From Paenibacillus curdlanolyticus YK9 (GTDB taxonomy: Bacteria; Bacillota; Bacilli; Paenibacillales; Paenibacillaceae): a DNA stretch of 64,000 bases. The notes beneath the pieces were generated by a model that made no database searches, had not been told where the DNA came from, and saw nothing but the letters and a program-made list of their open reading frames with translations. This document shows positions 28,275 through 41,822 of the stretch, one piece after another (position 1 is the first letter of the stretch; every line of letters starts with the position of its first letter). The DNA lies in NCBI RefSeq assembly GCF_000179615.1, contig NZ_AEDD01000002.1, positions 1 through 64,000 of the forward strand. Direction: 5' to 3'. Both the position numbers and the translations under genes were made by a program.

Positions 28275-28304
28275 TTGACAAAAGATGGAGCGCGATGATA
28301 GAAT
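28275..28304 (+). promoter_or_regulatory. Sigma-A promoter of the heptose-glycan operon
   Basis: TTGACA (28275-28280), N18, TAGAAT (28299-28304). A 5' leader of about 195 bases would separate the start site from gmhA. Confidence 0.65.
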
Positions 28305-28396
28305 CCGAATCGAAATAACGATAAACTGATCGCAATGCATCGATTATTCGCAGCAATTGTCTGATTGCTCGAATTAAGCGGTTCGAGGAGGTGTTT

Positions 28397-28474
28397 GTGC
28401 AAACGTTTGCGCGAATTCGTAGACCCAATGAATCCATTCGTAAACGAAGCAAGCTAGAAACATACGAAAGATAA
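28397..28474 (+). CDS. Putative leader peptide in heptose operon 5' leader
   Basis: 25-codon ORF, GTG 28397 with a strong GGAGG 5 bases upstream, ending TAA at 28474, 31 bases before gmhA. The peptide is basic (QTFARIRRPNESIRKR...) and unlike anything I recognise. The start region coincides with the palindrome at 28398-28411. It may be a translated leader that affects expression, or the good ribosome site may be chance. Confidence 0.4.
   Translation: MQTFARIRRPNESIRKRSKLETYER
28398..28411. promoter_or_regulatory. cre-like palindrome (CcpA or LacI-family operator)
   Basis: TGCAAACGTTTGCG matches the cre pattern TGNAANCGNTNNCA except the last base, and its core GCAAACGTTTGC is a perfect palindrome. 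It lies about 90 bases downstream of the inferred transcription start, a position used for roadblock repression. Carbon-source control of the operon is inferred. Confidence 0.55.
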
Positions 28475-28505
28475 GCATGACCACTATCGAGAGGGGCGTT
28501 TAGAG

Positions 28506-29111
28506 ATGAGTGAATTGGCAGAAAAAACGGTATTGGATTTTCGAGCAGATATTAACGGGTATTTGGACGGCTTGAAGGCAGTGCTCGACCAAATGGATTT
28601 GGACGAAATCAATACGGTCATGAGCAAGCTGGTGGAGGCCAACCGAAGACAGGGCTTTATTTATATTTTTGGCAATGGTGGAAGCGCTTCAACGGCGTCC
28701 CATTTCGTAAACGATTTTAACAAAGGCACAAGCGAGAACTTACGTACTAAATTCCGTTTTTACTGCTTGAACGATAGTGTTTCAACGGTGATGGCCATTG
28801 CCAACGACGTAGGCTATGAGCATATTTTCAAAATGCAGCTCGAAAACCTGTTGACGCCTAATGACATTGTCATCGGCATCTCGGGCAGCGGCAATTCGAA
28901 AAACGTCGTGGCAGCAATCGAATATGCGAATTCAGTCGGAGCGGAAACGATTGGATTGGTCGGCTATGACGGCGGCAAAGTCAAACAGCTGGCCGACTGC
29001 TCGATCCACGTACCGATTCACGATATGCAAAAGGTAGAGGATGTCCATATGATTATGGATCATCTCATGATGGGCATTTTGAAAGAGTATCTGGAGAGGT
29101 GCCAGGCATGA
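28506..29111 (+). CDS. gmhA: Sedoheptulose-7-phosphate isomerase GmhA (SIS domain)
   Basis: 201 residues. Converts sedoheptulose 7-phosphate to D-glycero-D-manno-heptose 7-phosphate, the first step to activated heptose. The SIS fold has IFGNGGSASTASHFVNDF (substrate loop with the GmhA-type Asn/Ser), VIGISGSGNSKNV and the C-terminal VEDVHMIMDHLMMG, with the conserved E-x2-H metal/catalytic region. It is the first gene of a nine-gene operon; ATG 28506 follows GAGAGGGG. The following kinase gene overlaps it by 4 bases, and the rest of the heptose pathway downstream makes the assignment much stronger than a generic SIS call. Confidence 0.85.
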   Translation: MSELAEKTVLDFRADINGYLDGLKAVLDQMDLDEINTVMSKLVEANRRQGFIYIFGNGGSASTASHFVNDFNKGTSENLRTKFRFYCLNDSVSTVMAIANDVGYEHIFKMQLENLLTPNDIVIGISGSGNSKNVVAAIEYANSVGAETIGLVGYDGGKVKQLADCSIHVPIHDMQKVEDVHMIMDHLMMGILKEYLERCQA

Positions 29112-30136
29112 TTATTAGCCAGACGCCGCTGCGCGTCAGCTTCTTCGGCGGCGGGACGGATTTGAAGGACTATTACGAGCTGCACGGCGGAGCAGTCACT
29201 AGCGTGACGATAGATAAGTACGTCTATGTGACCGTAAAACGCCGCTGCGACGACGAAATCGTGCTGAACTACGCCGAACGGGAGCAGGTAAGCAATGTCA
29301 GCGACATTCAGCATCCGATTTTTCGGGAGGCGCTTCGTATCGCCGGCATTGCGAAGGGAGTCGAAATTACGAGCGTTGCAGACATCCCTTCGCAAGGCAG
29401 CGGGCTTGGCTCCTCCAGCACGTTCACGGTCGGGTTGCTTAACGCTTTATTCGCGTATCAAGGACAATTAAAAAACGCACATGAGCTGGCAGAGCTGGCC
29501 TGCCATATCGAGATCGAGCTGCTGAGAGAGCCGATAGGTAAGCAGGACCAATATGCTGCCGCTTTCGGCGGCTTCAAGCAATATGTGTTTCAGCCGGATG
29601 GCACGGTCGATGTCGAATCGCTAGGCTTGTCGCTAGAGCAAGCTCGGCTGCTGCAGCGCAACGTATTGATGTTCTACACGGGCATCACGCGCAGAGCGTC
29701 GGCTGTACTAGGTGATCAGAAGGCAAATACCGGCGGCAATTTGAATCATCTGCATGCGCTGAAGGGGCTGTCCGAGCAAGGCAAAGGCAGCTTGGCAAGC
29801 TGCGACATTCCGTTGATTGGAGAGCTGCTCGACCGGAACTGGGAAAGCAAGAAGCAGCTGTCCGATAAGATTCACAATGAGGAAATCAACCGGATTTACG
29901 ATCTGGGCAAACAAGCCGGCGCGTACGGCGGAAAGCTGCTTGGCGCTGGCGGAGGCGGGTTTTTCTTGTTCGTGTGTCCGCCGGACAAGCAGCAGGACGT
30001 CCGCAAGGCGCTTCGGGACTATAAGGAATTGCCGGTCACGTTCGATGCGTACGGCAGCCGCATTATTCTTAGCATGACCGACACTAGCGGTTTTTTGCAG
30101 TATCAGGAAGCGGACGCGCTTGCAACAGTCGGTTAA
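29108..30136 (+). CDS. hddA: D-glycero-alpha-D-manno-heptose-7-phosphate kinase HddA (GHMP family)
   Basis: 342 residues. Phosphorylates heptose 7-phosphate at C1 to the alpha-1,7-bisphosphate. GHMP motifs: TPLRVSFFGGGTDL (N-terminal), the ATP loop IPSQGSGLGSSSTFTVG, REPIGKQDQYAAAFGG and the C-terminal GKLLGAGGGGFFLF. This series is the HddA/FKP-kinase-like subgroup used for GDP-heptose in Gram-positive S-layer glycosylation. The ATG at 29108 overlaps the gmhA stop (ATGA). After it, a 102-base gap holds a hairpin (CATCCGGC / GCCGGATG, about 30151-30187) before the transporter genes, perhaps a processing site. Confidence 0.85.
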   Translation: MIISQTPLRVSFFGGGTDLKDYYELHGGAVTSVTIDKYVYVTVKRRCDDEIVLNYAEREQVSNVSDIQHPIFREALRIAGIAKGVEITSVADIPSQGSGLGSSSTFTVGLLNALFAYQGQLKNAHELAELACHIEIELLREPIGKQDQYAAAFGGFKQYVFQPDGTVDVESLGLSLEQARLLQRNVLMFYTGITRRASAVLGDQKANTGGNLNHLHALKGLSEQGKGSLASCDIPLIGELLDRNWESKKQLSDKIHNEEINRIYDLGKQAGAYGGKLLGAGGGGFFLFVCPPDKQQDVRKALRDYKELPVTFDAYGSRIILSMTDTSGFLQYQEADALATVG

Positions 30137-30238
30137 CAATCGCAGCATCGGCCATCCGGCAGCAGGCAGCTATGCCCGTCGCCGGATGTTCGTTTATACA
30201 CATGACTGTGGGACAGTTGCTGCGGAAAGGACAGCGAA

Positions 30239-32008
30239 ATGGATGATGAGGTGAAAAGTGTAGTTAAAACGAGACGCGTACTGGCCTACATCCTCTCCCT
30301 ATGCAAGCCTTACCCGTTTGAGATTGGGATATGTTTTCTGGGAGCGGTATGCGGCACGTTTTTCGATCTGATCCAAGCCCGATATTTGAAGGATGTCGTG
30401 GATCAGGCGCTTGCAGGCGACAGACGCGGTTTCCAGATGGCGGTTGCCGCCATCGTCGTTATTTTGCTGGCAGGCTGCGCGTTCCGGTATGCCATCAAAT
30501 ATTTTTCGGGGCATCTCGGCATTCGGATCGTGCAGGATATTCGGCGCCAGCTGGCCTACCGGATTGGGCGGCTTCCGTCTTCGTATCTGGATAACGCGCA
30601 TTCCGGCGATATCGTTGCCCGTTTGAACAATGACGTTGGCTCGATCGCGGGGTTTGCCGAGTGGCAGCTGGTGAATTTGATTTATTCGCCGCTCGTTATT
30701 ATTGGCGTCATGTCCTATCTGCTTATTTTTAATTGGAAGCTGCTGCTTGCCAGCATGATCCTGCTGCCCGCAGCGATGTTCGCTTCGCGAAAGCTGGGCA
30801 AGGCCATCAGTAAATATGCGATCCAGCTGCAGAGAAGCTTTGCAGACTATAACGCCGTTATTCAAGACGCAACCGCGGGTATCGTAACCGTCAAAGCGTT
30901 TCGGCTGGAGCCTGTCTTATTTGCCAAAATGCAGCGCGTGACGGAACGTATACGCGATCTTCAACGGAAGACGGATTGGCGATGCCTTTTCATTGCGCCG
31001 GTATCGATGGTCCTGCAAGTCGCGCCGCAAATGAGCTGCGTGCTGTACGGCGGATATTTGACGACGACGGGCCAGCTGACGCCGGGGGAGCTGCTGACCT
31101 TTACGTATTTGCTCGGATTTGTAACGGGACCGTTATCCGGCTTGCCGAGTCTAATCGTGAACGTCAGAGTTACGTTGGAATCAGCGAAGCGGGTCGTTGA
31201 GCTGGTCGATGAACCTGAAGAGCGAAGCGGGGGCGACGTTTATGTGCTCCAGGATGGGGCTGCGCCCGTCCGTTTCGACGGCGTTCGCTTCGCTTATGAG
31301 GATCGCGAGCTGGTCCTGCATGATTTTGAAGCGGAGCTAAAGGCGAATGCGATGACGGCCATCGTAGGACCGAGCGGCTGCGGCAAGAGCACCGTTGTCA
31401 AGCTGTTATGCGGCTTCGATGAACGGTACGAGGGCTCGATTTCCTTGTTTGGCGGAGAGCTTAAGCGTTGGGATATGAAGGAAGCGCGGGCGCAAATTGC
31501 GATCGTTTCGCAGTTTTCCTATTTGTTTCCGGCTTCTGTCCATGACAATATCGCTTACGGCAATTTAAGCGCGACCAGAGAAGAAGTGGTCGAAGCCGCC
31601 CGAATGGCGAACGCCGACGGCTTTATTCAAGCTTGGCCCGATGGGTATGAGACGATTGTGGGCGAACGCGGCGCCTCATTGTCGGGCGGGCAGCGACAGC
31701 GGATTGCGATTGCTCGGGCATTGCTGAAGAACGCGCCTATTCTCGTGTTGGATGAGCCAACCTCAGCCTTGGATGCCCAAGCCGAAGCGGAGGTTCAAGC
31801 TGTGCTGGAGCAGCTCGTGCGAAGCCGAACCGTGCTTGTCATTGCGCATCGACTGTCTACGATCCGAGAAGCGGATGAAATTATCGTCATGGCGGAAGGG
31901 AAAGTGGCGGATCGGGGAACCCATCTGGAGCTGATGGCGCGCAACGTTTGGTATCGCGATATGTGCAGGAGGCAGCAAGCAGGGACCGAGGTGGGAGAGG
32001 CGGTATGA
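30239..32008 (+). CDS. ABC exporter half-transporter 1 of heptose operon
   Basis: 589 residues: six membrane segments (about 20-310) and one ATPase domain with Walker A GPSGCGKST, signature LSGGQRQRIAIARAL, Walker B ILVLDEPTSALD and H-loop AHRLST. All catalytic residues are intact. It is coupled by ATGA overlap to a second half-transporter, so the two probably form a heterodimer of MsbA/lipid-oligosaccharide-exporter type. Position inside the operon, between sugar-activation and glycosyltransferase genes, suggests it exports the operon's product or its lipid-linked form. Start follows GGAAAGG. Confidence 0.85.
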   Translation: MDDEVKSVVKTRRVLAYILSLCKPYPFEIGICFLGAVCGTFFDLIQARYLKDVVDQALAGDRRGFQMAVAAIVVILLAGCAFRYAIKYFSGHLGIRIVQDIRRQLAYRIGRLPSSYLDNAHSGDIVARLNNDVGSIAGFAEWQLVNLIYSPLVIIGVMSYLLIFNWKLLLASMILLPAAMFASRKLGKAISKYAIQLQRSFADYNAVIQDATAGIVTVKAFRLEPVLFAKMQRVTERIRDLQRKTDWRCLFIAPVSMVLQVAPQMSCVLYGGYLTTTGQLTPGELLTFTYLLGFVTGPLSGLPSLIVNVRVTLESAKRVVELVDEPEERSGGDVYVLQDGAAPVRFDGVRFAYEDRELVLHDFEAELKANAMTAIVGPSGCGKSTVVKLLCGFDERYEGSISLFGGELKRWDMKEARAQIAIVSQFSYLFPASVHDNIAYGNLSATREEVVEAARMANADGFIQAWPDGYETIVGERGASLSGGQRQRIAIARALLKNAPILVLDEPTSALDAQAEAEVQAVLEQLVRSRTVLVIAHRLSTIREADEIIVMAEGKVADRGTHLELMARNVWYRDMCRRQQAGTEVGEAV

Positions 32009-33771
32009 TCATTACGCAATATTGGAAGGAATTCGTGCGCGTGATGGCCTATATGAAGCCTCGCGCATGGGATTACGGGATCGGAATCGTTGGCAATAAC
32101 GCAATTGCAGCAATTGGACTCAATATTTTGATGGCATTTATGTATAAAGACATCGTGAACGCGGCTGTTCAAGGGGATGGCGCGATGCTAATTCGGTCGG
32201 TTGCTTCGGCAGTCGGCATATTAGCGGTATCGAGCTTCGCCTGCACGTTCTTGACCTATCGATACAACACGTGCATCCGGTATACGATGACCGACATTCG
32301 GCAGCAGGCGTTTCGGCATGTCGAGAAGCTGCCATTAAGCCGGTTCGAGAAAACGCATAGCGGCGAGCTTCTGTCCAGACTGACGAACGATCTGAATACC
32401 GTCGAGCATTTGTATGCGGATTCGCTCGGCGGATTAGTTTATGCCGTCGTTGTCGGCGTGGGGGCGATGATCGCCATGTTCGCCTTGAATGTGCCGATCG
32501 CGCTGTTCGCTATCGGGCTCGGCATCGTAACGTTTTTGTTGAACACGGCTTTCGCGGGCTCGTTCCGAAGGATAAACGATGATATTCAGCGTGGCGCTGG
32601 CAAGATGACGCAGGCGTTGTCTGATGTGCTGGCTGGCATGCCGATCGTCAAAATGTTCGCGCTCGACCGCATCATCATCCGCAAATACGATGACACCAAT
32701 GCGAATGTAGCGAATCTGAGCATCAAGCGCGTACGCAAATACGCGGTGCTCGATATCGTCAATTCCATAATGGGCAGCCTCAGCTTCGTCGGCATCGTCA
32801 TTATCGGTGGCGTGATGGCGCTCAACAAAGGCACGGATTTCGGCACCGTCATGGCGTTTGTAAAGCTGCAGGGCAATATCGGATTTCTATTCATGCAAGC
32901 AGGCAATCTCATGAATGATGTGCAGCGCGTGCTATCGGGCGCAAGCAGGGTGTTCGAGCTGCTGGATACGGATACGGAGCAAGAAAGCCATTCGGAGCGC
33001 CTGCCGGAAAACGGGCTTTATGCAATCGAATTAAACAATATGCGGTTCGAATACGCAGCTGGGCTGCCCGTCTTGAATGGGCTCAATCTTCAAATCCGCA
33101 GCGGACAGACTGTAGCGCTCGTTGGCCCGAGCGGTAGCGGCAAAAGCACGATCGCCAAGCTGCTGCTTGGCTTGTATCCATCTGCGGAAGGCTCGGTTCG
33201 CTACTGGGGAAGGGATGCCTCGGTCTACAGCTTAACCCAAATCAGAGAGATGATAGCATATGTGCCGCAGGATGCCTATTTGTTTGACGGTACGATCGAG
33301 GAAAATATCGGCTACGGCAATCTTGTTAAGGACAAGAACAAGCGGGATCGGATCATGGGGGCGGCAGCTGCGGCGAATGCGCATGCTTTTATTTCGAAAG
33401 AGCCGGACGGCTACGCGACGGAAATCGGCGAAGCTGGGGCGCGATTGTCAGGCGGGCAGAAGCAGCGGGTGTCGATTGCGCGGGCGCTGTTGGCGGATGC
33501 GCCGATTTTGCTCATGGACGAGCCAACCTCCGCGTTGGATGCGGACTCGGAAAGACAGATCGAGGAGGCGCTTCGCGAGCTGAGAGAAACGCGCAAGGAG
33601 CAGACGGTTATCATCATTGCGCATCGGCTTTCAACAATTGAGCATGCGGACCGCATCTTCGTGATGGAGCACGGACAGGTCATTGAAGAGGGGGATCATA
33701 ACGAGCTCATGCAGCAACGAGGATTGTACGAGCAATTATACCGGCTTCAATGTCAAGCTGCGGCAGGTTAA
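32005..33771 (+). CDS. ABC exporter half-transporter 2 of heptose operon
   Basis: 588 residues, the same architecture as its neighbour and nearly the same length. Walker A GPSGSGKST, signature LSGGQKQRVSIARAL, Walker B ILLMDEPTSALD and H-loop AHRLST are all canonical. Unlike the exporter at 2802-6478, neither half has lost the catalytic Glu. The start at ATG 32005 overlaps the previous stop; the in-frame GTG 31948 is inside the previous gene. GT5 genes follow after 11 bases. The cargo is unknown. Confidence 0.85.
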   Translation: MIITQYWKEFVRVMAYMKPRAWDYGIGIVGNNAIAAIGLNILMAFMYKDIVNAAVQGDGAMLIRSVASAVGILAVSSFACTFLTYRYNTCIRYTMTDIRQQAFRHVEKLPLSRFEKTHSGELLSRLTNDLNTVEHLYADSLGGLVYAVVVGVGAMIAMFALNVPIALFAIGLGIVTFLLNTAFAGSFRRINDDIQRGAGKMTQALSDVLAGMPIVKMFALDRIIIRKYDDTNANVANLSIKRVRKYAVLDIVNSIMGSLSFVGIVIIGGVMALNKGTDFGTVMAFVKLQGNIGFLFMQAGNLMNDVQRVLSGASRVFELLDTDTEQESHSERLPENGLYAIELNNMRFEYAAGLPVLNGLNLQIRSGQTVALVGPSGSGKSTIAKLLLGLYPSAEGSVRYWGRDASVYSLTQIREMIAYVPQDAYLFDGTIEENIGYGNLVKDKNKRDRIMGAAAAANAHAFISKEPDGYATEIGEAGARLSGGQKQRVSIARALLADAPILLMDEPTSALDADSERQIEEALRELRETRKEQTVIIIAHRLSTIEHADRIFVMEHGQVIEEGDHNELMQQRGLYEQLYRLQCQAAAG

Positions 33772-33782
33772 GGGGGAGCATG

Positions 33783-35276
33783 ATGAGCAAGGCTATTTTA
33801 TTTGCTGCGGGCTATGTAGATCCAAACGGCATCGAAACATGCAATACGCAGTTCATGAGCAAGATGCAAGACAAAGGGCTAACGGTCGGCGCAATCGTGC
33901 CTTTGCACCGATTGAACGGCGACGCATCCGAAGGGGCGAATGGACGCATTTTGGCGGTCATCGAGGTGGCGATGCCTTATCGCACCGTTCAAACCGTCAT
34001 TCGCCGAACGGAACGGTCCGGCATTCCATTTTATTGGATCGATGCGCCGACGTATTTCGATCGGCCGAATCGATTCGGCGAGCTGGATGATGCCGAGCGT
34101 TATCTCTTTTGGTGCAAAGCGGTAGTACAAGCGCTGCCAGCTCTCGATATGATGCCGGATTTGATCCATTGCCAGGACTGGCCATCCGCGTTTATTCCGT
34201 TTTTGCTGGCACATCGGTATCGTTCGATTACCGCTTATAAAGCGATACGCACGATGTATACGTTCCATTCCATTGGCAATCAAGGCATCTTCGATCAGGA
34301 AAATTGCTGGAATGCCGGGTTGTTCATTGAGGAGCTGCAGGAATTCGGACTGGATTATTACGAGCAATTGAATTTTATGCAGGCAGGCTTACGGTATGCG
34401 GACGCGATTACGACGGTCAGCCCGCAATATGCCCGGGAGATCGCTACAGAAATGTGCGGGATGACGATGGAGCAGTTGATTGCCGATAAGCAGGAGCAGC
34501 TATACGGAATCGTCAACGGGATCGACCATGAAACGTTTGACCCGGCGACGGATCAGCAAATCGCAGCGAACTATAAGGTTGACCATCTAGCCGGCAAGAG
34601 CATGAATAAAGCGGCGCTTCAGCTGGAGCTCGGCTTGCCGCAGCGGGCTGACGTCCCCGTTCTACTGTTCCATTCTGCTTTCAGCAGCGAGAAGGGAGCG
34701 GATATGCTGCGATATGGCCTGCCTGATTTGCTGAAAAGCGATTTGCAGCTCATTGTCCTGCATGCCGGGCCTGATAGCTGTGGCTTCGAGGAGGCGCCAT
34801 TCGCACGCTTCTTCGCGGAGGCTGCGCAATCGAATGAGTCAAAGTTCCGGTTTCACCCGTATGATGCCAAGCGGAAGCGCCGATTGTTCGCTGGCGCGGA
34901 TATGCTCTTGATGCCGTCTGCTTCCGAGCCATGCGGGTTCGAGCAGCAGCTTGCGATGCGCTACGGGACCGTGCCGATTGTACGGTCTGTCGGTGGGCTG
35001 GCAGATACGGTTATTCCATATAGTGAAAATCCAGCTGATGCAACAGGCTTTGCCTTCCATTATGCCAATGAGAAGGTGATGCTTCATGCGGTTCGCCAAG
35101 CGATCGGGCTCTACAACAGCAAAGAGCAATGGGAGAAGCTCATCCGCAACGGGATGAAGCGCCACTACAGCATTGACGATACAGTCGATGCTTATTGGAA
35201 CGTCTATCGCAAGCTGATCGGTGACTCTATAGGCATGGCAGCATCTTCGCATGGAAACGAGGGTTATCAACGATGA
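33783..35276 (+). CDS. GT5 (glycogen-synthase-like) glycosyltransferase, divergent copy
   Basis: 497 residues, GT-B fold. The C-terminal donor site is well kept: LLMPSASEPCGFEQQLAMRYG (Glu382 at the position of the catalytic-region Glu of GlgA) and VRSVGGLADTV. The N-terminal half is divergent: the KTGGL donor-binding motif of glycogen synthases is absent (AGYVDPNGIETCN instead), the HxHDW segment reads HCQDWPSA, and the HNxxYQG segment reads HSIGNQG. It may use a donor other than ADP-glucose, or serve as a partner of the next, more regular GT5. Start at ATG 33783 after AGGGGGAG. The next gene overlaps by 4 bases. Confidence 0.82.
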   Translation: MSKAILFAAGYVDPNGIETCNTQFMSKMQDKGLTVGAIVPLHRLNGDASEGANGRILAVIEVAMPYRTVQTVIRRTERSGIPFYWIDAPTYFDRPNRFGELDDAERYLFWCKAVVQALPALDMMPDLIHCQDWPSAFIPFLLAHRYRSITAYKAIRTMYTFHSIGNQGIFDQENCWNAGLFIEELQEFGLDYYEQLNFMQAGLRYADAITTVSPQYAREIATEMCGMTMEQLIADKQEQLYGIVNGIDHETFDPATDQQIAANYKVDHLAGKSMNKAALQLELGLPQRADVPVLLFHSAFSSEKGADMLRYGLPDLLKSDLQLIVLHAGPDSCGFEEAPFARFFAEAAQSNESKFRFHPYDAKRKRRLFAGADMLLMPSASEPCGFEQQLAMRYGTVPIVRSVGGLADTVIPYSENPADATGFAFHYANEKVMLHAVRQAIGLYNSKEQWEKLIRNGMKRHYSIDDTVDAYWNVYRKLIGDSIGMAASSHGNEGYQR

Positions 35277-36703
35277 GTCGCAATATCTTGTTCGTTACTT
35301 CACAAATGTATCCATTCGTCACAGGTACGATGGGTATTTTCAATTATTCGCTGCCCAAAAAGCTCGCAGAGCTCGGCTGGGATGCTCGGGTTATCGTCCC
35401 GCGCATTCGCAACGTCCATCGCGATTATCCCGAGATAACCGAGGAGGTCGCCCAGCTCTTTCTTCCGATGGGAGAGCGGCTGATTGCATGCCGAGTCGTA
35501 TCATGCTTGGTCGATAGCGTTACGGTCTATTTAATCGACGCACCTGATTATTTTGATCGGCCTAATCTGTATGGTTACGAGGATGAGGCGGAGCGTTTCG
35601 GCCTGTTCTGCAAAGCGGTGCTGGCTGCGCTGCCTTTATTGGCTTTTAAGCCGCAGCTGCTTCATTTGCAGGATTGGCATACGGGACTCATCCCGATGCT
35701 GATGGAAACGAAGCATGCCGGCGATCCGTTTTACGAGGACATTCAAACGCTATTAACGATCCATAACCTTGGCTACCAAGGCATATTCGACCGCGATTAT
35801 GCGGCGCTGCTTGACCTTCAATGGGAGGATTGGGTAGATAGCGGCGCAGCCTATTATGACCAAATCAATTTTATGAAAGCGGGCATTTTGCACGCCGATG
35901 CAATTACGACGGTCAGCCCTTCCTATGCTAAGGAAATCGCGACCAAGCAATACGGCTCGACGCTGGAGGAGGCGATTCAGTCGCGAAGCGAGCATCTATT
36001 CGGCGTCTTATGCGGGCTTGATTTGCAAATTAACGATCCTTCGACCGATTCACGCCTTCACGTGACGTACGATGCGGATACCTTAGAACGCAAGGCAATG
36101 AATAAAGCGGCTTTGCAGCAGGCGCTCGGATTTCCGATTCGGGCGGAAATTCCGGTGCTGTCGTTGTTTTCCCGGCTCAAAACGGAGAAGGGGCTTGACC
36201 TGGTCGTCAATGCGATGGACGATCTCATGCGAATGGATGTCCAGTTCGTCATCGTGTCGAACGGCGATGATATTTACGAGGATTTTTTCCGCGAAGCGGC
36301 ATTGCGGTATCCGGATCGGTTTGCATTCGTGCTTTATGATAACGATTTTGCCTACCAAGCGTACGCTGGCTCCGACATGTTCCTGATGCCCTCCGGCTAT
36401 GAGCCATGCGGCATTGGGCAATTAATTGCGCTGCGGTACGGGGCTGTTCCAATCGTGCGGCAAGTCGGGGGATTGAGCGACAGCATCCAACCGTTCGACG
36501 AGCAGACGGGCGAGGGCAACGGGTTCGTGTTCAAGCCCTATTTTGCCAAAGTGATGCTGTATACGATTCGCAAAGCGATTGAAGCCTTTCACCGACCGGA
36601 CAGCTGGCGGACCGTCGTCCAGAACGGGATGCGGGAAGATCACAGCTGGAATAAGTATACGAAGCAATATGCAGACGTCTATGAGAGGGTGTTGAATCGA
36701 TGA
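35273..36703 (+). CDS. GT5 (glycogen-synthase-like) glycosyltransferase, more canonical copy
   Basis: 476 residues, the normal GlgA length. The acceptor/active-site region is close to the family (LLHLQDWHTGLIPM, TIHNLGYQGIFD), and the C-terminal PSGYEPCGIGQL places Glu at residue 377, the same number as the E. coli GlgA catalytic-region Glu. The donor motif KTGGL is again missing: the segment reads PFVTGTMGIFNYSLPKKL. Loss of that Lys in both copies is the main reason to doubt ADP-glucose as donor. The retaining GT5 mechanism would fit an alpha-linked nucleotide-heptose donor. Starts with an ATGA overlap. Confidence 0.83.
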   Translation: MSRNILFVTSQMYPFVTGTMGIFNYSLPKKLAELGWDARVIVPRIRNVHRDYPEITEEVAQLFLPMGERLIACRVVSCLVDSVTVYLIDAPDYFDRPNLYGYEDEAERFGLFCKAVLAALPLLAFKPQLLHLQDWHTGLIPMLMETKHAGDPFYEDIQTLLTIHNLGYQGIFDRDYAALLDLQWEDWVDSGAAYYDQINFMKAGILHADAITTVSPSYAKEIATKQYGSTLEEAIQSRSEHLFGVLCGLDLQINDPSTDSRLHVTYDADTLERKAMNKAALQQALGFPIRAEIPVLSLFSRLKTEKGLDLVVNAMDDLMRMDVQFVIVSNGDDIYEDFFREAALRYPDRFAFVLYDNDFAYQAYAGSDMFLMPSGYEPCGIGQLIALRYGAVPIVRQVGGLSDSIQPFDEQTGEGNGFVFKPYFAKVMLYTIRKAIEAFHRPDSWRTVVQNGMREDHSWNKYTKQYADVYERVLNR

Positions 36704-38034
36704 AAGCTGTCATTATGGCAGGGGGCAAAGGGACCCGTCTGGGACAACGTACCCTGGATTTGCCGAAGCCGCTCGTCCCAGTTAACGGGAAGCCCGTGCT
36801 GGAGCATCAAATCGATAACTTTGCCCGATACGGAATCACGGAGATTTGGGTTGTTATCGGGCATCTTGGGGAGCAGATCGAGCAGCATTTGGGGGATGGC
36901 TCGCAATATGGCGTGAGCATCCGATACATACGCGAGGATCGGCCGCTCGGGACGGCGGGTGCGCTGCATGGCATGCAGGAGACGCTTGGCGAATCGTTCG
37001 TGCTTGCGTATGGCGATGTTGTATTTGATGTGAATTTGGGCCAAATGATCGACTATCATCTCGCGCATCATTGGCTGGGAACGCTCGCCGTGCATCCGAA
37101 CAACCATCCTTACGACAGCGATGTGCTGAAGGTCGGGGTCGACGGCACTGTGCAAGCGATCTATCCCAAAAACGAAAAGCGCGATTTCGATTATCGCAAC
37201 TGCGTCAATGCCGGATTATTCGTGCTGCGAAGCAGCCTGATTGCTGCTATTGCGCCGGATGCGAAGCAGGATCTAGAGAAGGATGTACTGACGCATCTCA
37301 TCGCGGAGGGAGCGATCGGCGCTTACAAAACGACGGAATATATGAAGGATATGGGGACGCCTGATCGGTTCGACAAGGTGCAGGCGCATATGGAGCAGGG
37401 CGTCGTGCATGCCAAAAACTTATCCCAGAAGCAAAAGGCGATATTCCTTGACCGCGACGGCACGATTAACCGGTATGTCGGGCTCGTGACGAATCCGGAT
37501 GCGCTGGAGCTGGAAACTTTCGTCATCGATGCGCTGAAGCGAATCAATGATTCGTCGTTCCTTTGCATTGTCGTTACGAACCAGCCGGTCGTAGCACGGA
37601 ATCTATGCACGGAGGAAGAGGTCGACCGCATTCACGATCGGATGGAGACGCTGCTGGGCAATGAAGGCGCGTATGTGGACGATATTTTATATTGTCCCCA
37701 TCATCCAGACAGAGGCTATCCGGAGGAAAATAAAGCGTATAAAATCGCATGCAGTTGCCGCAAGCCTGGCATCGGCATGGTCTTGGAGGCCGCAGGCCGA
37801 TATAACATCGATCTGTCCGCTTCCTATTTCATAGGCGATACGACCGTGGATATCCAAACCGGCTACAATGCGCAAACGACGACGATTCTGGTCGGCACGG
37901 GTCTAGGCGGCTCGGACGATAAGTATGCGATCGGGCCGGATTATACGGCCCAGCATCTGCTGGAGGCAGTGGACGGCATTTTGTCGGGCGCCTTCCAACC
38001 AAGGAGCGAAAGAAAATATGTCGAGCATAGCTGA
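36700..38034 (+). CDS. Fused heptose-1-phosphate nucleotidyltransferase (HddC-like) and heptose-bisphosphate phosphatase (GmhB-like)
   Basis: 444 residues with two enzymes. Residues 1-235: sugar-1-phosphate nucleotidyltransferase, with MAGGKGTRLG, LPKPLVPVNGKPVLEHQ, PLGTAGAL and the metal-binding YGDVVFD. Residues about 245-420: HAD phosphatase of the GmhB type, with FLDRDGTINR, VVTNQP, the zinc-loop pattern CPHH...CSC, the Lys in CRKPGIGM and FIGDTTVDI. Together these would remove the C7 phosphate from heptose 1,7-bisphosphate and activate the C1 phosphate, the last two steps after GmhA and HddA. The nucleotide (GDP, ADP or other) cannot be read from the sequence. ATGA overlaps tie it to the preceding GT5. 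Confidence 0.83.
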   Translation: MKAVIMAGGKGTRLGQRTLDLPKPLVPVNGKPVLEHQIDNFARYGITEIWVVIGHLGEQIEQHLGDGSQYGVSIRYIREDRPLGTAGALHGMQETLGESFVLAYGDVVFDVNLGQMIDYHLAHHWLGTLAVHPNNHPYDSDVLKVGVDGTVQAIYPKNEKRDFDYRNCVNAGLFVLRSSLIAAIAPDAKQDLEKDVLTHLIAEGAIGAYKTTEYMKDMGTPDRFDKVQAHMEQGVVHAKNLSQKQKAIFLDRDGTINRYVGLVTNPDALELETFVIDALKRINDSSFLCIVVTNQPVVARNLCTEEEVDRIHDRMETLLGNEGAYVDDILYCPHHPDRGYPEENKAYKIACSCRKPGIGMVLEAAGRYNIDLSASYFIGDTTVDIQTGYNAQTTTILVGTGLGGSDDKYAIGPDYTAQHLLEAVDGILSGAFQPRSERKYVEHS

Positions 38035-39838
38035 GCTATTATTGCAAACGAATGCCGCGGAGCAGTGGAAGCGAATCGGAACGGAGCGCAGAGTCGGCGT
38101 TCTAATGCCGCTTTCCAGCCTTTATTCGAGCCGCAGCGCAGGCGTTGGCGATTTTGAAGATTTGAAGCTGGCAGCGGATTGGTGCGCACGAACGGGCCAT
38201 ACCATTTTGCAGCTGCTGCCGCTTAACGATTATTACCATTCGCCTTATTCAACCTTCAGCTTGTTCGCGCTTGACCCGATGTATACGGCGCTTGATCGGC
38301 TGATTGGCGTGCCGCCAAGCGAGATAGCGCCTGAGATCGAAGCGATTCGCGAACGATTTCCAACCGGGCTAGGCTGCATCGATTATGACGTCAAGCAGGC
38401 GAAGCTCGATGCGCTGTATGCCGTTTTCACGAGGCTGGACAATGCTGAAGATCACATGGCTTACCAGGACTTCGCAGCGGAAAACCGTGATTGGCTCGAC
38501 GATTATGCCCTGTATACGGCGTTGAAATACGATTATTCCCCTTTCAGCTGGGAGCAGTGGGAACCGGAATATCGCGATGCGGAGCCATCGACGATGCTGG
38601 CGTTTACAGCGGCGAATGATGTGAGAATCCGTTTCGTGAAATGGCTGCAATGGCAGTTATATGAGCAGTTGAAAGCTGCCAAGCAGCATGCGAATGCGAT
38701 CGATGTACAGCTCATGGGCGATCTGTTCTATATCGTTTCCCGCGATAGCGCAGACGTATGGAAACGAAGAGAATGCTTCTGGCTCGATCTCGTGCCAGGC
38801 CTGCCTCCGGAGCCTGCGCATATGCAAGGCCAAAGGTGGGGCGACCAGCCGGTTTATCACTGGGATACGGTGACGGAAGCGGGCGGGCTGATGGAACGGC
38901 GCCTGCAATATTGCGAGCATTTTTATAACATTGCCCGGTTAGACACGGTATCCGCCTTATTCAAAATGTGGTACATCCCGCGATCGGCGCCGGATGAACT
39001 GCAGGGCGTTCCGGGCTTCTATTATCCGGATTCGTGCGGCGACTTCTCGCAGCGTGGACGGGATGCGCTTACTAAACTGCAGAGCTTCACCAGCATGCTG
39101 CTTTGTGCAGAAAACCTGTCTCCCGCATGCCTGGTCTATACGCCAGTCATTCGAGAGCTCGGCGTGCCGCCGATTAATTTCCAGCGCTGGGACAAGGATT
39201 GGGATGTCAGACATGATTTCATTCCGCCGAATGAGCTGCATCCGGTCACGATCTTCACGTTATCCAATCATGATACATCGTTATGGGCCGATTGGTGGGA
39301 GCGGGAAGCCGGTACGATTGACGCTTCGAAGCTCGAGAGCTTTTGCGAGCAGCATCAGCTGGACGCCGCTCGTATTCAGCGTCGATTGTTCGACGCGACG
39401 CGTTCCTCGGCAGGCAAATTGCGTTGGCGAGATACCGTGTCCACCCCGAAAAAGCTTGCTGAGTTAGTCGGTTTGCCGATGGAGCATATCGGCGCGTTCA
39501 TTCACGATTACCGCAATAGCTACGGCGAGAAAGAAAAGCTTTGGGCACAGATGAAACTCCAAGGGCCGATGCGCGAGAAGGCGGATCGCGAAATCATACA
39601 GAGCGCAATTGAACTCATCTTCTCCTCCAACGCGGTTTGGTCGATCGTCTCTATGCTGGATTACCTCTGCATGCTTGCGATCATCGACGGCGATTACGAT
39701 CAGTATCGGCTGAATCGGCCTGGGACGGAGCGAGGCCGTAACTGGACGCTGGCGCTTCCTGTTCCGCTTGAAGCTTTATTAGAAGAAAAGCATTGCAGTT
39801 CGATAAGGCAAATGATCGGGGCGGTGGCTGTGTCATGA
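38018..39838 (+). CDS. GH77 (4-alpha-glucanotransferase-like) protein, divergent copy
   Basis: 606 residues, MalQ-type (beta/alpha)8 fold. The opening SSLYSSRSAGVGDFEDL matches the MalQ N-terminus, and LMGDLFYIVSRDSADVW is a conserved block. Catalytic candidates: nucleophile Asp309 in ARLDT, acid/base Glu365 in CAENL and stabiliser Asp419 in SNHDT. The usual nucleophile motif is RIDH; here the residue after Asp is Thr310. The ATG at 38018 has AAGGAG upstream and overlaps the preceding gene by 17 bases; an earlier in-frame start at 37925 is inside that gene. It is coupled by ATGA to a second GH77 gene. Canonical substrate is alpha-1,4-glucan, but the operon suggests a modified glycan. Confidence 0.83.
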   Translation: MSSIAELLLQTNAAEQWKRIGTERRVGVLMPLSSLYSSRSAGVGDFEDLKLAADWCARTGHTILQLLPLNDYYHSPYSTFSLFALDPMYTALDRLIGVPPSEIAPEIEAIRERFPTGLGCIDYDVKQAKLDALYAVFTRLDNAEDHMAYQDFAAENRDWLDDYALYTALKYDYSPFSWEQWEPEYRDAEPSTMLAFTAANDVRIRFVKWLQWQLYEQLKAAKQHANAIDVQLMGDLFYIVSRDSADVWKRRECFWLDLVPGLPPEPAHMQGQRWGDQPVYHWDTVTEAGGLMERRLQYCEHFYNIARLDTVSALFKMWYIPRSAPDELQGVPGFYYPDSCGDFSQRGRDALTKLQSFTSMLLCAENLSPACLVYTPVIRELGVPPINFQRWDKDWDVRHDFIPPNELHPVTIFTLSNHDTSLWADWWEREAGTIDASKLESFCEQHQLDAARIQRRLFDATRSSAGKLRWRDTVSTPKKLAELVGLPMEHIGAFIHDYRNSYGEKEKLWAQMKLQGPMREKADREIIQSAIELIFSSNAVWSIVSMLDYLCMLAIIDGDYDQYRLNRPGTERGRNWTLALPVPLEALLEEKHCSSIRQMIGAVAVS

Positions 39839-41637
39839 ACAGAGCAATTAAGCAGTTAGAGAGAAAAACAGGCGTGTTCGCGCCTTTGTTTTCCGTTCAT
39901 TCCTCACGAAGCGCCGGCGTAGGCGACTTCGAGGATCTGAAGCGCGTTGTCGACTGGTGCGCCTTAACCGGCCAGTCGATTATTCAGCTGCTGCCGATGA
40001 ACGATCGTTTGACATCGGTTTATGCGCCATCCAGCTTATTCGCGTTGGAGCCGCAATATATGGCGATGGAGCGACTTATCGGCGTTGATCAGCATGTCGC
40101 TGAATTCGCGGCAGCGGCAGTTAGGCGGCAATATCCGGCGGGTCAAGGCTACGTAGATTATGCGGTAAAAGGCGAGAAGCTCAAGTGGCTTTACGAGCTG
40201 TTCGCTGCGATTGAAGAGCCGCTGCCCGAGGCGTATTTTGCATTCATCCATGAGCAAAGGGAATGGCTTCATGATTACGCGCTGTACAAGACGATCAAGC
40301 GCGAGCATTCCGAGGATCGCTGGGAGTATTGGGATGAGCCGCTCAGAGATCGGCATCCCGAAGCGCTCGCGGCGTTCGAGCGGAAGCATGAGAAGCGTCT
40401 TCAATTTTTCAAGTGGCTGCAATGGCAGTTGTTTGAGCAGTTCCGTGAAGCGAGAGCGTACGCCGAGTCACGCGGCGTCAGCTTAATGGGCGATTTTTTC
40501 TACATCGTCATGAGCGATAGCGTCGATACGTGGGCAAGCCGCGAGATGTTCCAATTGGATCGCTGTCCGGGCTTGCCGCCGGAGCCGGGCAGTCCGCGAG
40601 GGCAGCGATGGGATGACCAGCCGGTGTATAACTGGAAGCGGATGCAGGAGGATGGCTACCGGTTTCTAACCCGGCGGGTCACGTATCAGGAAAATTTCTT
40701 CCACATTCTGCGAATTGATCATATATCGTCCTTCTTCCGCGTGTGGAGCATTCCAGCGAACGAGCCGTGGGAAACGCTTGGCCTGAACGGGCGATATGAG
40801 CCTTCCACCTATTCGGAATGGGAAGAGCAAGGGAGAGCGATGCTCGAAGCGATGCGGCAGGGGACATCCATGATGTTTTGTGCGGAAAATCTCGGTCCAT
40901 TCACGACGTTCTTCACGCCAGTCGTTCGCGACCTAGGCATTCCGATCATTAACTTCCAGCGCTGGGAGAAGGATTATGACGGGACCTGCAAATTTAAAGC
41001 GCTGCAAGACTACGACGAATTGACGATGATTACCTTGTCCAATCATGACACCTCCTGCTGGACCGATTGGTGGGAAAACGAGGCGGGGACGGTCGAGGAC
41101 AGCTGGTTCCGGGAATATTGCGGTTATCTTGAGCTGCACTATGAGACCGTTCGGGACAAGCTATTTAATCTGGAGCAGTCCGCAAGCGGCAAGCTGCGAT
41201 GGCGGGATGATGTCGATACGGTGGACATTATGCTTGAACGTATTCAGCGGCATGCCTTCCAAGTGGCGGGGCTGATCCATCGTTATCACTGCACATTTCA
41301 AGAACGAGAGCAGCTAGCCAGCCAAGTGCTGGCGGGAATCGCCGATCCAGCGGAAACGGATAGCCGGCGAATGCTGCAAGCGGCGATGATCGGCGCGATG
41401 CGGTCGAACGCTGTATTTTGTGCCCATTCGATCATCGACTGGTTGGCTGTGCTCGGCTTAGTCGAGAAGGAGGCGGCAGCCGAGATGCGCATTAGCCGCC
41501 CGGGCATCGCGGATGTGAAGGATTGGTCGCTGACGATCCCGATTCCGATTGAGAAGCTGCTGGAGGATGCGGTAGTCGCGGAAGCGAGGCGGATTGTAGA
41601 GGCGGGGCGAGTAAGCCAAGTGGAGAGCGTGAGCTAG
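39835..41637 (+). CDS. GH77 (4-alpha-glucanotransferase-like) protein, canonical copy
   Basis: 600 residues. All GH77 catalytic elements are present: RIDH with Asp295, CAENLG with Glu351 and SNHDT with Asp405. LMGDFFYIVMSDSVDTW and the N-terminal SSRSAGVGDFEDL match its neighbour closely, so the two genes are duplicates that have diverged. Transfer of alpha-1,4-linked segments, or cyclisation, is the family reaction. It is the last gene of the operon. No clear terminator follows; the next 200 bases contain a riboswitch. The pairing of a canonical with a less canonical copy mirrors the two GT5 genes. Confidence 0.85.
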   Translation: MNRAIKQLERKTGVFAPLFSVHSSRSAGVGDFEDLKRVVDWCALTGQSIIQLLPMNDRLTSVYAPSSLFALEPQYMAMERLIGVDQHVAEFAAAAVRRQYPAGQGYVDYAVKGEKLKWLYELFAAIEEPLPEAYFAFIHEQREWLHDYALYKTIKREHSEDRWEYWDEPLRDRHPEALAAFERKHEKRLQFFKWLQWQLFEQFREARAYAESRGVSLMGDFFYIVMSDSVDTWASREMFQLDRCPGLPPEPGSPRGQRWDDQPVYNWKRMQEDGYRFLTRRVTYQENFFHILRIDHISSFFRVWSIPANEPWETLGLNGRYEPSTYSEWEEQGRAMLEAMRQGTSMMFCAENLGPFTTFFTPVVRDLGIPIINFQRWEKDYDGTCKFKALQDYDELTMITLSNHDTSCWTDWWENEAGTVEDSWFREYCGYLELHYETVRDKLFNLEQSASGKLRWRDDVDTVDIMLERIQRHAFQVAGLIHRYHCTFQEREQLASQVLAGIADPAETDSRRMLQAAMIGAMRSNAVFCAHSIIDWLAVLGLVEKEAAAEMRISRPGIADVKDWSLTIPIPIEKLLEDAVVAEARRIVEAGRVSQVESVS

Positions 41638-41786: not shown

Positions 41787-41822
41787 AAAGTATTCGGACT
41801 TTCAGTCTGAATACTTTTTTTA
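41787..41822 (+). terminator. Riboswitch expression-platform terminator
   Basis: AAAGTATTCGGACT / AGTCTGAATACTTT with one wobble, then a T-run. Ligand binding upstream should prevent its formation and turn on the gene at 41845. Confidence 0.85.

Follow-up and report, generated by a model that had tools for sequence, protein, structure and literature searches.

Organization of the gene cluster

The genes described here lie in a 64,000-nucleotide stretch of Paenibacillus curdlanolyticus YK9 (contig NZ_AEDD01000002.1, positions 1 to 64,000), the whole of which is called the window. The list of open reading frames (ORFs) and family scans of the window revealed nine genes on the + strand at 28506–41637, in which enzymes of a heptose-activating type stand together with glycogen-synthase-like proteins of family GT5, amylomaltase-like proteins of family GH77, and a pair of ATP-binding cassette (ABC) proteins. 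The first two genes encode a GmhA-like phosphoheptose isomerase of the SIS family (28506–29111) and an HddA-like GHMP kinase of the heptose 7-phosphate 1-kinase type (29108–30136). They are followed by two MsbA-like exporter subunits, ABC1 (30239–32008) and ABC2 (32005–33771); by GT5a, a degenerate glycogen-synthase-like protein (33750–35276, with a possible start at 33780 or 33783); and by GT5b, a glycogen-synthase-like glycosyltransferase (35273–36703). The last three genes encode an HddC-GmhB fusion of a sugar-1-phosphate nucleotidyltransferase with a HAD-type heptose bisphosphate phosphatase (36700–38034), the amylomaltase-like transglycosylase GH77a (38018–39838), and its paralogue GH77b (39835–41637). 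The gene set points to an undescribed sugar chain.

The initial annotation of this DNA had described nine same-strand genes with five ATGA overlaps and one overlap of 17 bases, and base-by-base inspection verified these junctions: the ATGA overlaps were at 29108 (GmhA/HddA), 32005 (ABC1/ABC2), 35273 (GT5a/GT5b), 36700 (GT5b/HddC-GmhB), and 39835 (GH77a/GH77b), and the 17-base overlap was between HddC-GmhB and GH77a. HddA and ABC1 were separated by 102 bases, and ABC2 and GT5a either overlapped by 22 bases (start at ATG 33750) or were separated by 11 bases (start at ATG 33783). A promoter-like site, TTGACA-18-TAGAAT with TG before the second hexamer, was found at 28275–28304 (+ strand; 11/12 matches), and the upstream stretch contained four promoter-like sites compared with a mean of 1.3 in shuffled sequences. 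The TTTGACAAA stretch at the promoter could be aligned in locus L047 and in Cohnella faecalis (L069). Downstream of GH77b, a terminator-like hairpin followed by a T-run was located at 41787–41817 (+ strand; one found, 0.4 in shuffles). These sites agree with the single promoter proposed before, from which we infer one transcript. The ratio of nonsynonymous to synonymous substitutions (dN/dS) between the window and Paenibacillus sp. MMS18-CY102 (L068) was 0.038–0.144 across the nine genes.

Distribution of the cluster

With the GH77b protein as query, four of 295 Paenibacillaceae genomes were matched (P. curdlanolyticus itself, one genome of the same genus, and two of other genera), all of which carried the cluster. 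A GH77 scan with one genome per species (84,980 species) gave 120 relatives, the best 80 of which, at 79 loci, were used; many contigs were short and one of two peptide patterns was required, so members may have been missed. The cluster was present at five of the 79 loci, namely in Paenibacillus sp. MMS18-CY102, C. faecalis, the Bacillota metagenome-assembled genome (MAG) BP5.bin74 (L070), Paenibacillus oenotherae (L071), and Paenibacillus plantiphilus (L072). The first two had all nine families in the order of the window. All nine were also present in the Bacillota MAG, where the ABC genes lead and GmhA separates HddC-GmhB from GH77a, whereas P. oenotherae had eight of the genes, with a single GH77, and P. 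plantiphilus had HddA, GT5b, HddC-GmhB, two GH77s of the GH77a type, and GmhA. On the gene map of the P. plantiphilus cluster, the ABC genes and GT5a were absent. The core of GmhA, HddA, HddC-GmhB, GT5b, and at least one GH77 was thus common to all six loci, the window included, and the GH77 paralogues were paired in five of the six. The ABC1 gene of C. faecalis (L069:2251–4007) appeared as two overlapping ORFs, owing to a frameshift or a sequencing error.

Because two other genomes repeat the order of the nine families and five carry the core, the gene set is not a product of chance, and a chance operon was ruled out by this conservation. The initial annotation named a failure of the genes to stay together in other genomes as a refutation; no such failure was seen, the core being together at every locus in spite of an order that differed in three. 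The coupling of the heptose genes with GT5 and GH77 is real. As far as the searches reach, it is a property of one cluster lineage in Paenibacillaceae and one Bacillota MAG. Genes beyond the cluster were common only to L071 and L072 among the five named clusters, and an esterase match beside the cluster was seen only in L047 among L047, L062, and L063.

Among the remaining 74 of these GH77 loci, 49 were titled Candidatus Omnitrophota. One of the 74 had GT5 hits (L126) and none had the heptose set; weak HddC- or GmhB-like hits occurred in four (L084, L095, L097, and L103), and no locus combined such hits with GT5. In the genome of P. curdlanolyticus there were four GT5 genes, two in the operon and one each on contigs C31 and C32, and two GH77 genes, both in the operon, with no other GH77 detected by Pfam.

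Enzymes of the putative heptose pathway

In searches against NCBIfam, GmhA scored 123 bits with TIGR00441 (cut-off 209), HddA 181.5 bits with NF049969 (cut-off 600), the HddC part 145 bits with its best model, a mannose-1-phosphate guanylyltransferase (cut-off 440), and the GmhB-type HAD part 139.5 bits (cut-off 178). Only the GT5s (TIGR02095) and general HAD domain models were above curated cut-offs among the hits named; the names used here therefore denote families and not proven functions. By family, the four activities of nucleoside diphosphate (NDP)-D,D-heptose biosynthesis (isomerase, 1-kinase, 7-phosphatase, and nucleotidyltransferase) were encoded together at all six loci, with the isomerase taken as GmhA-like only. 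HAD phosphatases of this type carry the motifs DxDGT, CxCRK, and GDxxxD, and GHMP kinases carry GSGLGSSS. The HAD part contained DRDGT, TNQ, CPH, CSCRK, and GDTTVD, and the kinase contained GSGLGSSS; a second, looser kinase pattern was unmatched. Among solved structures, HddA was closest to a putative heptose 7-phosphate kinase and the HAD part to a heptose bisphosphate phosphatase. The HddA route yields an alpha-activated sugar, which fits the requirement of GT5 enzymes for an alpha donor, and the chemistry of the two halves of the operon therefore agrees.

The fused HddC-GmhB protein also lies beside HddA and GmhA elsewhere in the phylum. A profile of the fusion was run against 398 genomes of the phylum, and 11 regions from 10 genomes were fetched, in which the relatives were 29–45% identical across the matched portions, with 61.7% for the GmhB portion of L181. 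HddA matches were found in nine and GmhA matches in eight of the 11 regions. Neither GT5 nor GH77 was found near these relatives in any of the 11 regions, within 10–20 kb. Compared with NDP-D,D-heptose biosynthesis as otherwise known, the present operon differs in its linkage with GT5, GH77, and, in most cases, an ABC exporter, and in the zinc ligands of its GmhA.

GT5a and GT5b

GT5a and GT5b scored 161.9 and 241.7 bits, respectively, with PF08323 (cut-off 22.7), and the two proteins gave 389 and 475 bits with the glgA model TIGR02095 (cut-off 328). The predicted structure of GT5b superposed on E. coli GlgA (2qzs) with a template modelling score of 0.90 at 34% identity, confirming a glycogen-synthase fold; the low-confidence stretches of the model (14–22, 247–252, 302–304, and 376–379 among them) are active-site loops.

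Residues were compared in E. coli GlgA numbering with 35 GT5s outside the operon, all of which kept K15, G18, H161, N246, R300, K305, G328, and E377. The GT5b proteins of all six loci kept H161, R300, K305, and E377, as in GlgA, whereas K15 was deleted and G18T, N246C, and G328S were present in every one. The Agrobacterium enzyme contacts ADP-glucose through K15, G18, N246, and G327 (table in PMC2576272), the last mapping to 328 by an offset of one residue, and His161, Asn246, Arg300, Lys305, and Glu377 are named in PMC7137382. With the count limited to columns occupied in 85% or more of the background rows, eight conserved columns were lost in every GT5b protein, and four of them were ADP-glucose contacts (hypergeometric probability 0.004, post hoc and with the number of contacts set by hand at 7). 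In a GT5b profile search of 249 genomes of the phylum (E up to 1e-100), the P. curdlanolyticus protein scored 970 bits and the next best in another genome 518; the nine best matches from other genomes, two of which (L189 and L197) were among the 35, were ordinary GT5s that kept all the listed residues. Since the contacts K15, G18, and N246 were lost at all six loci, GT5b is regarded as a GT5 member but is not filed as a glycogen synthase.

GT5a had lost the KTGG motif, and K15 was lost in 5/5, R300 in 4/5, and H161 in 3/5 copies, with an uncertain N-terminal alignment; R300 was kept in one, K305 in three, and E377 in four of the five. From the loss of R300 and H161, GT5a is probably non-catalytic and a likely pseudo-enzyme partner. 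The lost residues ruled it out as a second active synthase, and its dN/dS of 0.144 against L068, which is constrained though the least of the nine, ruled it out as a pseudogene. The earlier proposal that both GT5s act on heptose would accordingly be narrowed to GT5b, which combines substrate-side changes with kept catalytic residues.

The two other GT5 genes of P. curdlanolyticus, on C31 and C32, keep the normal residues. The one on C31 adjoins a GlgC-like nucleotidyltransferase gene in what is taken, from gene order and size, for the glg operon, and an ordinary glycogen operon was rejected as an identity for the cluster. In a Patescibacteria MAG (L126:4054–11500), two GT5 genes adjoin a GH77 of the operon-related subfamily; one has S at position 15 and keeps G18, and both keep N246.

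GH77a and GH77b

The GH77 proteins were compared in Thermus numbering, as 11 operon copies against 72 other rows (L130, L131, and L135 gave no row). The catalytic triad D293, E340, and D395, together with R291, Q256, and W258, was kept in all 11 operon copies, as in GH77 4-alpha-glucanotransferases, and H394 was kept in 10. In contrast with amylomaltases, all 11 carried P215F, D249E, and D341N, with a small residue (A, G, S, or T) at position 251, whereas the other rows had P215 in 72/72, D249 in 71/72, D341 in 71/72, and one of F, Y, L, H, or M at position 251. Columns 297 and 499 were also lost in all operon copies. Because P215, D249, and D341 were lost throughout, the proteins are assigned as GH77 members, and glucan activity is not claimed. 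In a quick tree of 77 of the 83 rows (rows shorter than 480 residues and L110, L125, and L127 were excluded), built without bootstrap, the operon proteins formed one clade of their own, with an SH-like approximate likelihood ratio support of 100 and the a and b branches within it. Its sister group, mostly Candidatus Omnitrophota, was placed with a support of 90; the nearest kin of the operon GH77s belong to a subfamily in Candidatus Omnitrophota, Elusimicrobiota, Ignavibacteria, and others (L073–L137). Kept catalytic residues together with substrate-side changes fixed across species, in the GH77s as in GT5b, are what one would expect of enzymes that have ceased to act on glucose; that the GH77s rearrange or cyclise a heptose chain, as first proposed, is conjectural.

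The comparisons of GT5b and GH77 bear on the view that ordinary glycogen or maltodextrin enzymes merely share one operon with an unrelated heptose pathway. Such a view follows the annotation of the families, and an operator motif in common with starch genes (see below) suits it. It would leave unexplained why the core stays together at all six loci in differing order, and why active-site changes are fixed across genomes while the two other GT5s of the same genome keep the normal residues; we give it the slightest chance of any reading.

The ABC pair

The Walker A, signature, Walker B, and H-loop motifs were present in both ABC1 and ABC2. Their best model was TIGR02203 (MsbA), with 401 and 418 bits against a cut-off of 602; the pair belongs to the same broad superfamily as MsbA and the ChvA glucan exporters, with scores well under the curated cut-offs. 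ABC1 and ABC2 would export the product of the operon. The likeness to MsbA would also suit a cell-wall or S-layer glycan operon whose exporter flips a lipid-linked heptose glycan, and D,D-heptose is a constituent of the S-layer glycan of Aneurinibacillus thermoaerophilus (PMC5387315). A wall polymer was among the products initially considered, but nothing supported it: the nine genes include none for a priming transferase acting on a lipid carrier, a polymerase, a ligase, or wall anchoring, inspection of the GT5 and GH77 proteins by eye showed no signal peptide, and P. plantiphilus lacks the ABC pair. A wall or S-layer role is therefore considered very unlikely.

Proposed function and alternative explanations

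We lean, by little more than an even chance, to the reading that a heptose-containing oligosaccharide or polysaccharide is built by this operon, following a logic like that of glycogen synthesis, and is exported by most of the bacteria that carry it. Downstream of the GmhA-like isomerase, HddA would phosphorylate C1 in the alpha configuration, the GmhB domain would remove the 7-phosphate, and the HddC domain would make an NDP-alpha-heptose, with GDP as the most likely nucleotide because of the family kinship of HddC. GT5b, an alpha-retaining GT-B enzyme with replaced glucose-binding residues, would add the heptose to a growing alpha-linked chain, with GT5a as a non-catalytic partner; GH77a and GH77b would cut and re-join the chain in the cytoplasm, by disproportionation or cyclisation, and ABC1/ABC2 would carry it out of the cell. 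The gene content, its conservation and constraint, and the kept and replaced residues are observed; the substrate, the linkage, cyclisation, the partnership of GT5a, and export are what we infer from the sequences. Because substrate-side changes are fixed across species while the catalytic residues are kept, the pattern fits GT5b and the GH77s having been retuned away from glucose towards a different sugar in alpha linkage, for which the heptose of the adjacent genes is the simplest candidate. A more specific form, in which a GT5 "heptan synthase" and cyclising or trimming GH77s form a heptose counterpart of glycogen and cycloamylose synthesis and yield a secreted, possibly cyclic, alpha-linked heptose oligosaccharide, is put forward tentatively.

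Several observations weigh against the heptose-glycan reading. The zinc ligands of GmhA are H, E, Q, and H (PMC5387315), and those of the operon GmhA were H, D, E, and H at all six loci, with both histidines kept, E changed to D, and Q changed to E. For this reason only a GmhA-like protein is claimed, and on sequence grounds the changed ligands are a real weakness of the heptose assignment. Together with the scores of GmhA, HddA, and HddC below their equivalog cut-offs, they mean that the sugar could be another, the four enzymes supplying GT5b and the GH77s with some other activated sugar, either a hexose or a different epimer of heptose. We judge a different sugar to be distinctly unlikely, as all four steps of one pathway are encoded together, HddA and GmhA accompany HddC-GmhB in most of the 11 other regions, and the closest solved relatives of HddA and the HAD part, named above, point to heptose. 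Among nine GmhA-like proteins from those regions, eight had E and Q, and one (L187) had the same D and E as the operon protein.

The remaining points against a heptose glycan concern the substitutions and the make-up of the cluster. By distance along the sequence, the columns lost were not clearly enriched near the listed sites, either in GT5b (4/8 compared with 21/60) or in the GH77s (3/5 compared with 21/52). The six GT5b proteins and the 11 GH77s each form one clade, so that the substitutions may represent few events. D341N occurs naturally in the amylomaltase of Streptococcus agalactiae (PMC8465469). The exporter and GT5a stand outside the core because P. plantiphilus lacks both. If N246 and H161 hold O6 of the sugar, as analogy with phosphorylase would suggest, N246C would alter the pocket where heptose has its extra carbon. 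A table in PMC6210743 gives "O6 ribose", which cannot be literal and is taken as a slip.

The operator upstream of the operon also belongs among these points. The palindrome GCAAACGTTTGC, of the MalR/CcpA (LacI-family) operator type, lies at 28399–28410 (+ strand), about 95 bases before GmhA. It was exact in L047/L068 and had one mismatch in L069, and it was not found in L070, L071, and L072 within the upstream stretch searched. The cre sites of CcpA resemble MalR-type operators, so that the regulator may be either MalR or CcpA. The palindrome matches pneumococcal MalR operators (PMC4451989). In the P. curdlanolyticus genome, the 13-base form occurred at seven distinct sites compared with none for a reversed control, and the 12-base form at 10 exact sites and, with up to one mismatch, at 43 compared with 21 for the control. 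Among the nine other exact sites, one was followed after 247 bases by an alpha-amylase gene, and another coincided with the start of a gene whose protein has pullulanase-associated domains; the others preceded an AMP-binding gene (C37:352013), two related BtrH_N-type genes (C38:169704 and 171138), and an aminotransferase gene, or had no clear target. One-mismatch sites preceded two more alpha-amylase genes and, by 22 bases (C32:264202–264213), the third GT5 gene. At C36:318500–324000, a CBM25 alpha-amylase gene and a gene for an alpha-1,3-glucanase-type protein (CatAgl) diverge and have two operator-like sites in common. Given the operator copies before amylase-type, pullulanase-type, and other genes, the operon is probably a member of a carbon regulon under a LacI-family regulator, in which starch use is a part but not the whole; the copies before the AMP-binding and BtrH_N genes suggest that the regulon may include secondary metabolism.

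The tie of the operator to starch-degrading genes hints at an alpha-glucan partner. The best rival to the heptose-glycan route is accordingly heptose on an alpha-glucan, in which GT5b would add one heptosyl residue to cap, prime, or branch an ordinary alpha-1,4-glucan or maltodextrin, the GH77s would reshape the glucan part, and the ABC pair would export the resulting mixed product. The operator sites before GmhA, the alpha-amylases, the pullulanase-type gene, and the third GT5 favour this rival, as do the kept catalytic residues of the GH77s and the compatibility of D341N with a starch amylomaltase (PMC8465469); a glucan capped by a heptosyltransferase is known from Helicobacter pylori lipopolysaccharide (LPS) (PMC6892558). 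However, the changes at GH77 positions 215, 249, and 251 in all 11 copies would be unexpected if the acceptor were still maltodextrin, and mutations at D249 and F251 lower the starch activity of Thermus enzymes (PMC8465469). GT5b and the GH77s are both altered, and the genome has no GH77 elsewhere. The link of the operator to starch is itself loose, since the palindrome also precedes non-starch genes and one-mismatch sites were only twice as frequent as in the control; the operator was also absent from the stretch searched in L070–L072. On these grounds heptose on a glucan is considered unlikely.

Relation to known systems and significance

A parallel to the heptose chain that we favour is the DD-heptan of H. 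pylori LPS (HP1283, GT9), a D,D-heptose homopolymer attached to a glucan (PMC6892558); as described there, it is made by a GT9 enzyme on LPS, without GT5 or GH77. The prokaryotic GT5 subgroups given in a review comprise only UDP-glucose, ADP-glucose, and mixed users, with GDP-glucose use reported for a Pyrococcus furiosus GT5 (PMC11046441), and a search of 300,000 of the 445,374 characters of that review did not turn up the term "heptose". Among the open-licence papers listed in the literature searches, no description of heptose coupled with GT5 and GH77 was found.

GT5 and GH77 have so far been treated as alpha-glucan families, and GT5b differs from GlgA in lying in a heptose operon as well as in its residues. 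If the heptose-glycan reading is true, GT5b would, to our knowledge, be the first member of its family to use a donor that is not an NDP-glucose, and the GH77s the first of theirs dedicated to something else than a glucan chain. A simultaneous natural change of donor in the two families would reveal which positions govern the choice of sugar, and this could be tested by a few point changes. It would also caution against annotating each GT5/GH77 pair as glycogen metabolism, and the product would add a new class to the heptose glycans of Gram-positive bacteria.

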